Shown: positions 4,228-54,076 of the stretch, in pieces | Layout: each line of letters starts with the position of its first letter | Numbering within the stretch: the stretch's first letter is position 1 | Source: Natrinema mahii | GTDB lineage: Archaea; Halobacteriota; Halobacteria; Halobacteriales; Natrialbaceae | Direction: 5' to 3' | Assembly: GCA_000690595.2 (NCBI GenBank) | Contig: JHUT02000001.1 | Span: forward strand, 744,001-808,000 | DNA length: 64,000 bases | Notes under the pieces: generated by a model | What the model saw: the letters and a program-made list of their open reading frames with translations, nothing else | Databases searched by the model: none | What the model was told of the DNA's origin: nothing | Translations under genes and position numbers: made by a program

Positions 4228-4295
4228 CGAAATTTTACCCTGCGGTCTATCGCGGTCGCGATACCGCGACCGCGATGTCCCTCGGTAAAATTTCG
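4228..4295. repeat. Nested perfect palindrome after the DUF502 gene
   Basis: Two perfect inverted repeats are nested. The outer arms are 12 bases (4228-4239 and 4284-4295, cgaaattttacc against its complement). The inner arms are also 12 bases (4249-4260 and 4265-4276, atcgcggtcgcg against its complement) with a 4-base loop. The element begins at the base after the DUF502 stop codon. It could act as an RNA hairpin terminator or stabiliser, or be a copy of a dispersed haloarchaeal palindromic repeat. Confidence 0.75.
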
Positions 4296-47862: not shown

Positions 47863-48141
47863 ATGACAGCAAACGACAACACGGACACGATAGCCGAGAT
47901 CAGCCACACCAACCCCTACACCGGGGAGACGGCCGGTCGCCTGTTCAGCCGCGGCCCGATCGTCGCAACCGACGGCGGCACGCCCGATGCGACCGAGCCC
48001 ACCGACGCTGACGAGGCCGACGAACGGACCGACGCGAACGAAACGATGCGCGACGTCGACCACACGCCGCCAGGGGACGCCGCGGACGCGAACCGCGTCT
48101 TCGAGCGTGGCCGAACACAGCCCGTAGAGGACGAGGAATGA
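47863..48141 (+). CDS. Small acidic protein in the leu-ilv operon
   Basis: A 92-residue protein between ilvC and leuC: an ordered N-terminal half ([31 protein letters not shown]), an acidic disordered middle, and a C-terminal [20 protein letters not shown]. It ends with a four-base ATGA overlap with leuC, so it is co-translated with it. As I recall, similar small genes occur at this place in other haloarchaea. The function is unknown; the conserved ends and the coupling suggest a partner for IlvC or LeuC. Confidence 0.7.
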
Positions 48142-49562
48142 GCGAGGGCACACTGTACGACAAGGTCTGGGATCGACACAAGGTCACCACGCTGCCGACC
48201 GGACAGGATCAGCTGTTCGTCGGGCTCCACCTCATCCACGAGGTCACGAGCCCGCAAGCGTTCGGCATGCTCCGCGAACGGGACCTCGAGGTCGCCTACC
48301 CCGAACTGACCCACGCGACGGTCGACCACATCGTCCCGACGGCCGACCAGTCCCGCCCCTACGAGGAGGACGCGGCCGAGGAGATGATGGCCGAACTCGA
48401 GGCGAACGTCCGCGAGGCGGGCATCGAGTTCTCGGACCCGACGACGGGCGATCAGGGGATCGTCCACGTCATTGGACCGGAGCAGGGACTGACCCAGCCC
48501 GGCAAGACGATCGTCTGTGGCGACAGCCACACCTCGACCCACGGTGCCTTCGGCGCGCTCGCGTTCGGCATCGGGACCTCCCAGATCCGCGACGTGCTCG
48601 CGACGGGCACCGTCGCCATGGAGAAGCAGAAAGTGCGGAAGATCCAGGTCGACGGCGAACTCGGCGAGGGCGTCGAGGCCAAGGACATCATCCTCGAGAT
48701 CATCCGTCGCCTGGGCACCGAGGGCGGCGTCGGCTACGTCTACGAGTACGCCGGCGAGGCCATCGAGAGCCTCGGGATGGAAGGCCGGATGTCGATCTGT
48801 AACATGTCCATCGAGGGCGGCGCTCGCGCGGGCTATGTCAACCCCGACGAGACCACCTACGAGTGGCTGGAAGAGACTGACTACTTCCAGGAGAACCCCG
48901 AGAAGTTCGAGGAACTCAAACCCTACTGGGAGTCGATCCGCTCCGACGCGGACGCGGAGTACGACGACGTCGTCCACATCGACGCCGACGACCTCGAGCC
49001 GGTCGTCACCTGGGGGACCACGCCCGGCCAGGGGATCGGCATCACGGATCCGATCCCGGAGCCGGAGTCACTGCCGGCGGAGAAACAGGATACCGCCCGA
49101 CGCGCACAGGAACACATGCGCGTCGCGCCCGGCGAGACGATGGAGGGGTACAACATCGACGTGGCCTTCCTCGGCTCCTGTACGAACGCCCGCCTGCCCG
49201 ACCTGCGACGCGCCGCCCGGATCGTCGAGGGACGGGCAGTCGCCGACGACGTCCGCGCGATGGTCGTCCCCGGCAGCCAGCGCGTCCAGAAAGCCGCCGA
49301 GGAGGAAGGGCTCAAAGACACCTTCGAGGAGGCCGGCTTCGAGTGGCGCAACGCCGGCTGCTCGATGTGTCTGGGCATGAACGAGGACCAACTCGAGGGC
49401 GACGAGGCCTGTGCCTCCTCCTCGAACCGGAACTTCGTCGGCCGACAGGGCTCGAAGGACGGCCGGACCGTCCTGATGAACCCGCAGATGGTCGCCACGG
49501 CGGCGATCACCGGCGAAGTGACCGACGTTCGAGAGCTGCCGGAAACGGAGGTGACCGCCTGA
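48138..49562 (+). CDS. leuC: 3-isopropylmalate dehydratase large subunit
   Basis: LeuC is the aconitase-like [4Fe-4S] subunit that isomerises 2- to 3-isopropylmalate with LeuD. The 474-residue protein has [20 protein letters not shown] near residue 125, a cluster Cys in [20 protein letters not shown] near residue 350, and [20 protein letters not shown] near residue 408, which carries the other two cluster cysteines. All are intact. The stop overlaps the leuD start by one base (TGATG). Confidence 0.96.
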
Positions 49563-50197
49563 TGGGCGACGAAATCGAGATTCCGGAGGTCGACTACGTC
49601 TCGGGGTCGGGCGTCCCGATCCGGGGCAACGACATCGACACCGACCAGATCATCCCCGCCCGCTTCATGAAGGTCGTCACCTTCGACGGCCTCGGCGAGT
49701 TCGCGTTCTTCGACCTGCGGTTCGACGACGACGACAACCAGAAGGACCACCCGTTCAACGAGGACCGGTTCCAGGACTCCTCGGTGATGGTCGTCAACTC
49801 GAACTTCGGCTGTGGCTCCTCGAGAGAGCACGCGCCCCAGGCCCTGATGCGCTGGGGTATCGACGCGATCATCGGCGAGAGCTTCGCCGAAATCTTCGCT
49901 GGCAACTGTCTCGCGCTCGGCATCCCGACCGTCACGGCCGACAGCGAGACGATCGAGGCCCTGCAGGACTGGGTCGACGAGAACCCCGACGGCGAGATCG
50001 ACATCGACGTCGAGGCCGAGGAAGTCACCTACGACGACGAGACGATCGACGTCACCGTCGACGACGCCCAGCGCAAAGCCCTCGTCGAGGGCGTCTGGGA
50101 CACGACGGCGCTGATGAAGTCAAACGCCGGCGCGGTCCGCGAGACGGCTCGCGAACTGCCCTACGTCGACGACGCGGCGATCCCGGACGCCGAATAG
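49562..50197 (+). CDS. leuD: 3-isopropylmalate dehydratase small subunit
   Basis: LeuD is the swivel subunit of isopropylmalate isomerase. The 211-residue protein has GNDIDTDQIIPARFMK near residue 21 and NSNFGCGSSREHAPQALMRW near residue 80, both typical of LeuD. The acidic C-terminal 60 residues fit a halophilic form. Unlike in many haloarchaea, where leuB follows directly, here leuB lies 2.9 kb further on after unrelated genes. Confidence 0.95.
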   Translation: MGDEIEIPEVDYVSGSGVPIRGNDIDTDQIIPARFMKVVTFDGLGEFAFFDLRFDDDDNQKDHPFNEDRFQDSSVMVVNSNFGCGSSREHAPQALMRWGIDAIIGESFAEIFAGNCLALGIPTVTADSETIEALQDWVDENPDGEIDIDVEAEEVTYDDETIDVTVDDAQRKALVEGVWDTTALMKSNAGAVRETARELPYVDDAAIPDAE

Positions 50198-50472
50198 TCT
50201 CAGTCCTCGAGGCGCTCGAGTGCGATTTTTGATCGAGACACACGGTAGCTGACTCGGGTGACCTGGAGTCGTCTCTTTTCGGGGTGGCTCGAGTTCCGTA
50301 ATCCGGGTCCGTGTGGCTGTATCAAAGCTTACCTGCGAGAGTGCTATCGGAAGAAATATGCGAATTTCCGCGGTGAGTTCCCTGCATCCGTACCGCGAAC
50401 ACTCCTAATGTGGACGGCACAGCCCTATCGGAAACGACGCCTGGAACTTCATTCAAAACAATAGGAGTGTGC

Positions 50473-50985
50473 TTACCGCGAACTGTTTGTAAAACGGCTG
50501 ACCTCCGCTCGATATTCTGGAACGTTTTCGGCATCGATCCGCTCAACCGACCAGATCAGTGACTCACCACTAGGATCGACGTGCCCATATAGTCCGATAT
50601 AATTGCTTTCTTCGGTTGCCTCACCAACTGTAGAGAACTGTTCGGTTACTCCACTGAGTTCTCCCGTCACTTCGAAATACTCTGCTTTCTCCTCCCAAAT
50701 AGCAGGGACGTACTCTTGATACGGTGGGAGCGGTGTCTCATCCATGCCCTGTCCGCGTTGAGCCGACTCAAGCGTTATCGTTTCAGTCACCGGTTCTGAC
50801 TCGGCGGCACGGATCGTTACTGTTACATCTACACGTTCATCGTGCATGTTTACTACTGATATATGAATCAGGTGAACATCTTCGGAGATTAGTCGCGAGA
50901 GACAACCAGCAGTACTCGATACAAGTCCGACAGCGACTGTTCCGAGGAGTTTTCGTCGGCTGAAATTCATTTGATTAGAGAACAT
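50473..50985 (-). CDS. Tat-exported lipoprotein, unknown function
   Basis: A 170-residue protein with a Tat signal (FSRRKLLGTVAVGLVSSTAG) and a lipobox SSTAGC near residue 28, so it should be anchored to the outside of the membrane by a lipid on that Cys. The mature part is a beta-rich domain of about 140 residues (HLIHISVVNMHDERVDVTVT, EYVPAIWEEKAEYFEVTGEL). Such domains are common among haloarchaeal secreted proteins and have no assigned role. A start at the second Met (MNFSRRKLL) would give a normal signal as well. Confidence 0.7.
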   Translation of the reverse strand: MFSNQMNFSRRKLLGTVAVGLVSSTAGCLSRLISEDVHLIHISVVNMHDERVDVTVTIRAAESEPVTETITLESAQRGQGMDETPLPPYQEYVPAIWEEKAEYFEVTGELSGVTEQFSTVGEATEESNYIGLYGHVDPSGESLIWSVERIDAENVPEYRAEVSRFTNSSR

Positions 50986-51300
50986 ATTTGACTCAAGCTA
51001 CAATAATGAACCAGACACTAATGAAATACCGGGTTTAATGGTGAAATAATCCCGTACCGAACTGCTGCACAAATTTTGGCCCCGTTCAGAGCCGTTCTCA
51101 GTGGACGTTCTCTTTCCTTGTCCAGTCGATAGGTGTCGCTCAAGCATCGTCTCGTTTTGCCCCCGAAGTTGACTCGAGAAAGTAGAGATCGAGTGGTTAG
51201 GGGAGGATATCCGTCGTAGGCACACTGTGCGGTCCGCTCCGGAAACTCACGGTCCGGACGACAACCCCGGCCCAACCAGTCAACATCCTAACGTTCTTTA
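50986..51300. other. Non-coding stretch before the structured RNA candidate
   Basis: About 315 bases. The minus-strand open frames here (for example 51018-51275) are Arg-rich and start at odd places; I see no known product. A run near 51060-51150 has the composition of old, decayed coding sequence, but I could not identify it. The TATA-like tttata at 51297-51302 sits at the end. Confidence 0.4.
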
Positions 51301-51426
51301 TAGTTGGTTGCGTAACGCACGGATGCGCACGAAAGTGCGCCGAGTCGGAGTGTCCAGGACCAACTACACACTCCGACTCAACTGAGGCCCCCGCGTAGCG
51401 GGAGCAATCCACCATTGACGGTGGCG
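51301..51426 (+). ncRNA. Candidate structured RNA with five hairpins
   Basis: Five stem-loops follow in a row. (1) tgcg/cgca at 51309-51319. (2) gcgcac/gtgcgc with a GAAA tetraloop at 51325-51340. (3) a perfect 12-base stem gagtcggagtgt/acactccgactc at 51342-51379 with a 14-base loop. (4) cccgc/gcggg at 51390-51402. (5) ccacc/ggtgg at 51409-51424. The loop of hairpin 3 contains ccaacta (51360-51366), the exact complement of tagttgg at 51301-51307, which could form a pseudoknot. No tnpB lies nearby. Strand is assumed from the GNRA tetraloop. It could be a stand-alone RNA or a remnant IS200/IS605 right end with an omega-RNA. Confidence 0.5.
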
Positions 51427-51526
51427 AAATAAAGATGTGCCGACGTCCCGCCACCCAGTCGTAGCTGTGACCGGCGGGCTCGCTGGATTGTGTTTCGCTG
51501 TGTCGGGGCCTGCAACCGAACGACAC

Positions 51527-51706
51527 ATGGTCTCGAGAATCACCATCCACTGCGACTGTGGTACCGACGTCCATCTCGCGACGACCGACGATCCGGCGAC
51601 GTGTCCGGACTGTAGAACGGCGTTTGCGACGACGGTCTTCGAACTCACCAACTATCACCATGCATCCAGCACTCGCCACGGCACTGTCACGTATCGCGGC
51701 CCGTGA
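51527..51706 (+). CDS. Small zinc-ribbon protein
   Basis: A 59-residue frame starting MVSRITIHCDCGTDVHLATT with a CxC...CxxC pattern (HCDCG, then ATCPDCRTAF), spaced like a zinc ribbon. The C-terminal part overlaps the next gene by 47 bases. Zinc-ribbon micro-proteins are frequent in haloarchaea. Its start was chosen at the Met just before the ribbon. The gene could be chance, but the paired cysteines argue against it. Confidence 0.5.
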   Translation: MVSRITIHCDCGTDVHLATTDDPATCPDCRTAFATTVFELTNYHHASSTRHGTVTYRGP

Positions 51707-51878
51707 GGGCTGTGATCGATCGGCCTTGCCACCGCTGTACGAGGCCGTCGATCCCGAGGCACTGGCCGCGGTACTCGAGTCGAACGGAGACGTCGCCGTT
51801 CGCTTCACGTACGGCGACTACCGCGTCGTACTCGGCCCCGATCCCGACGAAGTGACGGTGATCGACGGGGCGCAGTAA
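51660..51878 (+). CDS. HalOD1-like output-domain protein
   Basis: A 72-residue protein with the pattern IAAREGCDRSALPPLYEAVD near residue 11, followed by DVAVRFTYGDYRVVLGPDPDEV. This is the halobacterial output domain HalOD1 as I recall it, found fused to response regulators or alone. Here it stands alone. It overlaps the zinc-ribbon frame by 47 bases. Confidence 0.65.
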   Translation: MHPALATALSRIAAREGCDRSALPPLYEAVDPEALAAVLESNGDVAVRFTYGDYRVVLGPDPDEVTVIDGAQ

Positions 51879-52090
51879 CGGGTCGTCAGTCGGACCCGGT
51901 CGACGATCACCTGTCTCCCTCGAGTCGGGGTTTCACCGCGTGTTGACGCCCGTCCGGCGTGATTCGTCGGTCCAGTGACCGACATCCGTGTCCGTGATAT
52001 GCGTTTCGGCCGGGTCGTCCACTTCCCCGCGTCGGCCGCGAGGTGGCTCGAAACCGCGAGATACTTCGGAGCCAGTGCCCAACTACGGGT

Positions 52091-53005
52091 ATGTCTCGTT
52101 TCCTCGACGGGGGACTTTTCCTGTTGCTCGCCGTCCTGTGGGGGTTTTCCTTTCCCGCGATCTCGGTCGGCCTCGAGTATCTCCCGCCGCTGCTCTTTGC
52201 GGCCGCCCGGTACGACATCGCGGCGGTCCTGTTGCTGACTGCGGCCGTCGTCCGGGCCGAGAAGTGGCGACCGACCGAGCGGAACGATCTGGCGGCCGTC
52301 GCGGGCGGCGGCGTCTTTCTCATCGCCGGCAACGGCCTGCTCTTTCTGGGTCAACAGACGGTTCCCAGCGGCGTCGCTGCGATCTTACAGGGGCTGGTGC
52401 CGATCATCACCGCACTGTGGGCGATCCCGCTGCTGGGCGAACGGCTCTCGCCGCTCGGGGCCGTCGGCGCGGCGATCGGCTTTCTGGGCGTCGGCCTCGT
52501 GATCCAGCCCGACCCGGCTAACCTGCTCGCCGGCGACACCGCCTCGCAGTTGCTCATCGTCGGGCAGGTCTGTAGCGTCGCGCTCGGTGGCGTGTTGATC
52601 CAGCGGGCCGGCCCGACCCTCGAGCAACTGCCGCTGGTCGGCTGGTCGATGCTCGTCGGCGGGCTCGTCTTGCACGCGGTCAGCCTCGCGGCCGGCGAGG
52701 TGCCGAGCGTCGACGTGGTCGGCCCCGTCTCGATGGGCGCACTGCTCTATCTCGGCGTCTTCGCGACCGCGATCGCGTTCATGATCTACTTCCGCGTCCT
52801 CGCGGAATACGGCGCGTTCGAGGCGGCGCTGATCGGCTATCTGGTGCCGATCGTCGCGACCGTGGCCAGCGTCGTCCTGCTGGGCGAGGAGATCGGCGTC
52901 CTGACCGTCGCCGGTTTCGGGCTGGTGGCGGTCGGCTTCGCCCTGCTCAAGCGGCGCGCGATCGCCGACGCGGTGGGGTTCTCGACGGGCGTCGAGAGTC
53001 CCTGA
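52091..53005 (+). CDS. EamA/DMT-family transporter
   Basis: A 304-residue permease with ten membrane helices in two EamA repeats, each about 140 residues. The first starts with FLDGGLFLLLAVLWGFSFPA and has GQQTVPSGVAAILQGLVPII; the second has LLIVGQVCSVALGGVLIQRA and ALIGYLVPIVATVASVVLLG. DMT transporters export amino acids or metabolites. It lies just before leuB, which hints at branched-chain substrates, but the gap and separate promoter make that speculative. The start was set at MSRFLDGGL, since the upstream extension is not hydrophobic. Confidence 0.82.
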   Translation: MSRFLDGGLFLLLAVLWGFSFPAISVGLEYLPPLLFAAARYDIAAVLLLTAAVVRAEKWRPTERNDLAAVAGGGVFLIAGNGLLFLGQQTVPSGVAAILQGLVPIITALWAIPLLGERLSPLGAVGAAIGFLGVGLVIQPDPANLLAGDTASQLLIVGQVCSVALGGVLIQRAGPTLEQLPLVGWSMLVGGLVLHAVSLAAGEVPSVDVVGPVSMGALLYLGVFATAIAFMIYFRVLAEYGAFEAALIGYLVPIVATVASVVLLGEEIGVLTVAGFGLVAVGFALLKRRAIADAVGFSTGVESP

Positions 53006-53095
53006 CGGGCGAGCGGGTCGGGACAGTCGGTTCGACGTCAGTGACGGGATGACGGTATCGATACCCTCTTTTCGGCCCCGCGACGATGATTGGGC

Positions 53096-54076
53096 ATGAC
53101 TCACGAGATCGCCGTCATCCCGGGCGACGGAATCGGACAGGAAGTAACGCCGGCCGCCGTCGAGGTGCTGGAGGCCCTCGAACCCGACTTCGAGTTCGTC
53201 GACGCCGACGCCGGCGACGCGGTAAAGGACGAAACCGGCGAGGCGCTGCCTCAGGAGACCTACGACCTGGCGGCGTCGGCCGACGCGACGCTGTTCGGCG
53301 CGGCCGGCGACACGGCTGCGGACGTCATCCTGCCGCTCCGAGAGGCGGTCGATTCGTTCGTCAACGTCCGCCCGGCGAAGGCCTATCCCGGCGTCGACGC
53401 CGTCCGCCCCGAGACGGATCTCGTCTTCCTCCGGGAGAACACCGAGGGCGTCTACGCGGGCCACGAGGATCGACTGAGCCAGGACGTCTCGACGCTGACT
53501 CGCGTCGTCACGGAGTCCGCCTCGGAGCGACTCGCCGAGTTCGCCTGTGACTACGTCGCCGGCGACGACCACGACGGCTTCTCGATCGTCCACAAGGCGA
53601 ACGTCATGCGCGAGACGGACGGACTCTTCCGCGACACGGTCAAAGGCGTCGCCGACGAGCACGGCGTCGAGACCGATCAGGTGCTGATGGACGCCTTCGC
53701 GACGCGGGTCTGTCTCGACCCCGAGCAGTTCGACGTCGTCGTCTGTCCGAACCTCGCGGGCGACGTCCTCTCCGACCTCGCCGCGGGACTGGTCGGCGGG
53801 CTGGGCCTGCTGCCCTCGGCCAACATCGGTCCCGACCGCGCCCTCTTCGAGCCCGTCCACGGCACCGCGCCCGACATCGCGGGCGAGGGCGTCGCCAACC
53901 CCGCAGCGACGATCATCTCGGCGGCGATGCTGCTCGAGTACCTGGGCTACGACGACGAGAGCGACCGGGTCCATGCAGCCGTCGAAGCGACGCTGGAAGA
54001 CGGCCCGCGTACCCCGGACCTGGGCGGCGACGCCTCCACCGAGGATGTGACCGCGGCGATCATCGATCGCCTGTAA
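53096..54076 (+). CDS. leuB: 3-isopropylmalate dehydrogenase
   Basis: LeuB oxidises and decarboxylates 3-isopropylmalate to 2-oxoisocaproate. The 326-residue protein has the family start [20 protein letters not shown], substrate contacts in [20 protein letters not shown] near residue 113, [15 protein letters not shown] near residue 168, and the metal/NAD region [20 protein letters not shown] followed by [17 protein letters not shown] near residue 256. The 2.9 kb between leuD and leuB carry unrelated genes, though leuB has its own promoter (gtatcgataccctc and more). Confidence 0.93.

Follow-up and report, generated by a model that had tools for sequence, protein, structure and literature searches.

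Structured, possibly switch-like RNAs form a conserved family at the predicted 5' leaders of zinc-ribbon/HalOD1 gene pairs in haloarchaea

The window we analyzed, a 64,000-nucleotide stretch of the Natrinema mahii genome, contains a compact cluster of hairpins followed on the same strand by two small overlapping genes, one for a zinc-ribbon protein and one for a HalOD1 protein (Table 1). These genes and the hairpins before them sit between leuC-leuD and EamA-leuB, within a branched-chain amino-acid cluster (window 48138-54076). Related copies (L035, L042, L043, L073-L075 and L091) occupy a similar place in several species, and the second copy of the window's own genome (L092) is found near pabA/pabC-like genes. 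Between leuD and the hairpins there is also a small lipoprotein-like ORF on the minus strand (50473-50985, start MFSNQMNFSRRKLLGTVAVGLVSSTAGCLS), for which we found no family match above the cut-off.

Table 1. Features of the locus, in positions of the window
Feature	Position	Strand	Description
Promoter-like block CCAACCAGTCAACATCCTAACGTTCTTTATA	51272..51302	+	TATA-like box at ~51296-51302, ~25 nt before P1
Predicted 5' leader RNA	51322..51526	+	~205 nt to the start codon; putative start ~51322
P1 hairpin	51325..51340	+	GCGCAC-GAAA-GTGCGC; 6-bp stem, GNRA tetraloop
P2 hairpin	51342..51379	+	Perfect 12-bp stem (51342-51353/51368-51379); variable apical loop 51354-51367
X segment	51387..51411	+	Both P3 arms and the following GCAATCCA; forms P3 or pairs with Y
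P3 local hairpin	51390-51402	+	CCCGC-GTA-GCGGG, inside the X segment
P4 candidate	51417..51447	+	Tentative; 9-bp stem (51417-51425/51439-51447), near-invariant loop GAAATAAAGA..T
Y segment	51484..51509	+	Complementary to X (alternative long helix B); lies 17 nt before the start codon
Zinc-ribbon protein gene	51527..51706	+	59 aa; CxCGT..CPDC..RGP; weak zinc-ribbon profile matches
HalOD1 protein gene	51660..51878	+	72 aa; Pfam HalOD1, E 3.7e-14; overlaps the zinc-ribbon ORF
EamA-family transporter gene	52091..53005	+	Pfam EamA; context only
leuB-like gene	53096-54073		After the EamA gene; Iso_dh

The first-pass annotation of this DNA had described a perfect 12-base stem and a 6-base stem closed by GAAA, both of which are present where it placed them, and had judged the longer stem unlikely to arise by chance. 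Our counts agree, in that perfect 12-bp hairpins with loops of 3 to 20 nt occur twice in the 64-kb window and in none of five dinucleotide-preserving shuffles; the sole other one, starting at 4249, has a 4-nt loop. The segment 51280-51450 has a folding energy of -67.5 kcal/mol (z = -4.7), which none of 200 shuffles equalled. Two further features held only in part. The last hairpin described, CCACC..GGTGG (51409-51424), exists in the window but is mostly particular to this copy, and the family-wide candidates near that place are the P4 stem with its loop and a long-range pairing. Similarly, the complementarity noted between the P2 loop and tagttgg at 51301-51307 is real, extending over 8 nt when one flanking base is included, but it is not conserved, with a mean longest match between loop and upstream sequence of 4.30 nt within a copy versus 4.23 nt between copies. 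Because 51301-51307 falls between the TATA-like box and the point where the transcript is predicted to start, this segment is probably outside the RNA, and we rejected the pseudoknot that had been proposed on both grounds.

A DNA search recovered one further copy in the window's own genome, at 80% identity, along with copies in 32 of the 125 genomes of the window's family, the Natrialbaceae. Searching with a covariance model built from homologs, a check that had been suggested at the outset, gave about 90 copies in 31 of these 125 genomes, with as many as roughly ten per genome. Applied to 392 genomes sampled across the order, the model also identified diverged copies, in six genomes that belong to two further haloarchaeal families. 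The genera carrying the RNA in a scan of named genomes were Natrinema, Natrialba, Natrarchaeobius, Halopiger and Halobiforma. No Rfam 15 family matched at the gathering threshold, and a permissive threshold (E 5) returned nothing except a chance microRNA match; plasmid, phage and viral collections contained no match to the RNA, and we found no description of it in the literature searched, which lies mostly outside subscription journals. Draft assemblies break or duplicate at copies L051, L067, L188, L189, L191 and L192 (single N joints, or runs of N over ORFs), as expected for a multicopy sequence. At L051, L067 and L189 a single N connects what look like tandem copies, which we took as assembly artefacts, and L191 and L192, seemingly without genes, are covered by runs of N with the HalOD1 end still visible.

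When only close relatives are compared, the stems show almost no variation and no clear covariation, which speaks neither for nor against structure; the diverged copies were needed. When these were included, 93.6% of the aligned cells in P1 to P3 were paired and 12 of the 24 pairs had changed on both sides. Double-changed cells numbered 48 versus 9.8 in shuffles, with none of 500 shuffles and no slid register coming close, counts that are not independent tests since the copies are kin. Because this alignment had been fitted to the covariance model, we made a second count on a MAFFT alignment built from sequence alone and obtained 93.1% paired cells and 38 double changes. P1 was paired in 97% of cells across 44 diverse sequences, with an A-U to G-C change in two. 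In P2, changes on both sides affected 7 of 11 modelled pairs (GAGCCGG/CCGGCTC, GAGAGGG/CCCTCTC, GAGAAGG/CCTTCTC), and in P3 they affected 4 of 7 (CCCGC/GCGGG, CTCCC/GGGAG, CCTCC/GGAGG). The P4 candidate was paired in 86.8% of cells, with covariation no better than that of shuffles. Compensatory changes in homologs thus support the three helices P1, P2 and P3, and together with the wide, sequence-conserved family they bear out the earlier suggestion of a structured regulatory RNA. The hairpin cluster is almost certainly a real, conserved RNA, and it is a member of an undescribed, evolutionarily conserved family without a match in Rfam.

Conservation sets in sharply about 50 nt upstream of P1 (CCAAC..GTCA.TATCCTAACGTTCTTTA). 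The promoter-like block forms this upstream edge in 66 copies, at a near-constant spacing to P1, and diverged homologs have TATAAAT, TTTAAA or TTATAAA in place of its TATA-like box. Since these variants stand at the equivalent place, we read the block as a promoter, and from the TATA spacing and the conservation we infer that transcription would start at P1, near position 51322. In many copies the block contains an inverted repeat, TATCCTAA-CGTTCT-TTAGGATA, of which the left half alone is strictly conserved; the window's copy lacks the right half (51272-51309).

It had initially been thought that no adjacent protein explained the hairpins and that the RNA might stand alone, and the gene neighborhood contradicts both ideas. 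The zinc-ribbon ORF begins on the same strand 73 nt past position 51454, a zinc-ribbon ORF overlapping a HalOD1 ORF lies downstream of nearly every RNA copy, and the order of promoter, RNA, zinc ribbon and HalOD1 is fixed in the Natrialbaceae. Across species, the RNA keeps its position 5' of this one gene pair, on the same strand, and is not independent of the neighboring ORF. A search of 16 genomes gave 26 strong zinc-ribbon matches, spread over 12 genomes, and each of them lies closely downstream of a copy of the RNA; the remaining four genomes, from relatives in which the RNA is absent, gave no strong match. Among the diverged copies, L176-L178 have the zinc ribbon only, L194 has HalOD1 only, L174, L179 and L180 have both, and L173 and L175 have a decayed version of the pair; given this variation in gene content, the RNA is the constant part. 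No single partner besides the zinc ribbon and HalOD1 emerged from the flanking genes that the copies share. A structure model of the zinc-ribbon protein had a mean pLDDT of 65 and no significant PDB match. From this arrangement in the genomes, we conclude that the RNA is very probably the leader of the zinc-ribbon/HalOD1 genes.

P2 has an apical loop that can face either way, with about 60 copies carrying a CNCCAA-type loop, as in the window, and about 18 an inverted UUGGNG-type loop. Over stretches of 10-16 nt, the inverted loops can be matched to loops of other copies read as the reverse complement, and template switching within the perfect inverted repeat is probably the source of the inversion. 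Because the two types are complementary, leaders of different copies could pair, and the mean longest pairing between P2 loops is 4.74 within genomes versus 4.22 between them, a value reached in 4 of 1000 label permutations. Paralogous operons might thereby cross-regulate a zinc-ribbon/HalOD1 network through leaders that kiss at their P2 loops, an idea that we regard as a long shot, and the complementarity within genomes could come from shared ancestry and local inversion.

Two readings that would remove the hairpins from leader function can be weighed against these observations. The first-pass annotation had offered an orphan omega-RNA, or right end of an IS200/IS605 element, a notion with which the compact hairpins and the GNRA loop are consistent. 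However, the TnpB domains of this genome are remote, the nearest on the contig about 274 kb away, the genes that accompany the copies are those of the zinc ribbon and HalOD1, and the Rfam search gave no match beyond the chance microRNA even at its permissive threshold, so this reading fails and we assign it virtually no probability. Alternatively, the palindromes could belong to a multicopy cassette that is mobile or recombining and could have no role as RNA. The many sites, the high copy number in some genomes and the two orientations of the P2 loop would suit such a DNA-level element, as would the integrase-like genes near some diverged copies; tyrosine-integrase-like ORFs occur within a few kb of L179, L180, L183 and L194, suggesting that some copies may travel on mobile elements. 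Nevertheless, the near-constant promoter distance, the fixed orientation to the ORFs, the compensatory changes and the tolerance of G-U pairs in the X-Y helix described below all argue against it, no transposase partner was seen among the copies' flanking genes, no match turned up in the plasmid, phage and viral collections, and the leuD-leuB copy stays in place in several species. We therefore consider a purely DNA-level element highly improbable.

Folding of whole leaders revealed that the X segment, which contains both arms of P3, is complementary to the Y segment over about 24 bp. Over 78 copies, the energy of the X-Y duplex had a mean z of -3.6 against shuffles, and in 64 of them it fell within the best 2% of 200 shuffles. 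The aligned helix, which we call B, comprises 24 pairs with 88.5% of cells paired and a covariation score of 0.173 versus 0.148 (0 of 500 shuffles), dropping to 0.089 or less when the register was slid; Natrialba copies, for example, replace CAAT/ATTG with CACT/GGTG. Five of nine diverged copies have a visible X-Y match of their own, modestly above shuffles (such as GGAGCAAU/AUUGCUCC in L174 and UCCCACAGAG/CUCUGUGGGA in L173), and in the other four (L176-L178 and L194) the pairing is no better than in shuffles. The mutually exclusive helix before the start codon is thus found in the Natrialbaceae and is weak or absent in diverged copies. The end of Y falls 11-26 nt ahead of the AUG in each of the 59 aligned leaders, although insertions make the stretch from the core to Y vary by tens of nucleotides, and this steady distance links Y to the start codon. 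P3 and the X-Y helix exclude each other, and compensatory changes are found in both. In fold calculations, X-Y pairing prevails in the minimum-energy fold of 54 of the 59 copies, P3 re-forms in 52 of 59 when Y is held open, and helix B exceeds the Y-open state in stability by about 22 kcal/mol. We saw no Shine-Dalgarno sequence or U-rich terminator masked by helix B.

The RNA family, the hairpins P1 to P3, the X-Y complementarity and the close gene partnership were all computed here, and our best reading of them is an archaeal leader RNA, structured and switch-like, that constitutes a new family. Under this proposal, transcription would start just before P1, and P1, P2 and P3 would fold first, once made. 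The later Y segment, beside the start codon, could then invade P3 to give the 24-bp helix B, which would end 17 nt upstream of the AUG. Y would be free in the P3 state and sequestered near the start codon in the long helix, and since the two folds are mutually exclusive, whatever favors one would set the level of zinc-ribbon and HalOD1 translation. Candidate factors include a ligand or protein acting on the conserved P1-P2-P4 part, for which near-invariant P1 and the loop GAAATAAAGA are likely contact points, or transcription speed, salt or temperature. We lean toward the leader being a two-state switch in the cell. That it acts on translation of the gene pair is a more tentative suggestion, which may or may not hold, and for the full proposal of a 5' leader that switches folds to control translation of the operon, we see the chances as evenly balanced.

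The great stability of helix B means that a switch may need kinetic control or may not operate, and helix B could instead be a permanent structure. In that case P1 to P3 and the long helix would stabilize the mRNA or fix a low translation rate as a constitutive leader, without switching. Stabilizing hairpins sit at the 5' end of an RNA, which is where P1 is predicted to lie, and the calculated preference for helix B over its alternative also fits. However, a single fixed fold would not require P3 to have compensatory changes of its own, given that both of its arms are also needed for B, and we consider a constitutive leader rather unlikely. It is also possible that cleavage of the mRNA, for instance at the X-Y helix, releases the structured part, which then acts in trans through the P2 loop as a processed sRNA; such cutting would also leave a nearly leaderless mRNA, a form that haloarchaea translate well. 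The P2 loop is indeed variable and single-stranded with its CNCCAA/UUGGNG motif, the RNA core is more conserved than both proteins (mean column identity of 81% versus 67-72%), and the RNA persists in diverged copies that lack the zinc ribbon or HalOD1 or carry it in degraded form. Yet the link of Y to the start codon speaks against this reading, as does the presence of the ORF in intact copies of the family, and we think a processed sRNA unlikely.

The switch-like leader can be compared with several known systems. The only experimentally determined archaeal riboswitch named in a 2021 paper (PMC8241225) is the fluoride riboswitch of Thermococcus kodakarensis. Like riboswitches and protein-bound leader switches, our RNA is a conserved, structured 5' leader with mutually exclusive helices, a downstream element near the start codon and several unlinked copies; unlike riboswitches, it matches no Rfam class, has no visible masked Shine-Dalgarno sequence or terminator, and is found, among the genomes searched here, in haloarchaea only. 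Intergenic haloarchaeal sRNAs such as sRNA132 and s479 of Haloferax volcanii resemble it as short RNAs located between genes, but this RNA differs in being multicopy and fixed upstream of one gene pair. It likewise shares a compact multi-hairpin form with the omega-RNA of TnpB but has neither the TnpB association nor the family match. HalOD1 (PF18545) is characterized in the accessible text of PMC5847659 as a halobacterial output domain that almost every haloarchaeon has in stand-alone form, with as many as 49 copies in one genome, and that of PMC10869688 reports that Haloferax volcanii needs the HalOD1 member DdfA for its disk shape; a leader RNA for HalOD1 is mentioned in neither accessible text. 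The operon also encodes a short, stand-alone HalOD1 protein, although HalOD1 genes far outnumber copies of the RNA. The unusual traits of the leader RNA are its very long alternative helix, a zinc-ribbon partner that was seen solely beside the RNA in the genomes searched, and the two-way P2 loop.

Few natural cases of riboswitch-like control are on record for archaea, and this leader RNA would be a rare natural candidate. With about 90 copies, clear covariation, a proposed two-state design and hosts related to genetic model species, it would give a direct way to ask how haloarchaea, whose mRNAs are mostly leaderless, regulate translation through RNA structure. It also provides a first handle on the function of the RNA-associated zinc-ribbon family and on part of the very large set of HalOD1 proteins.
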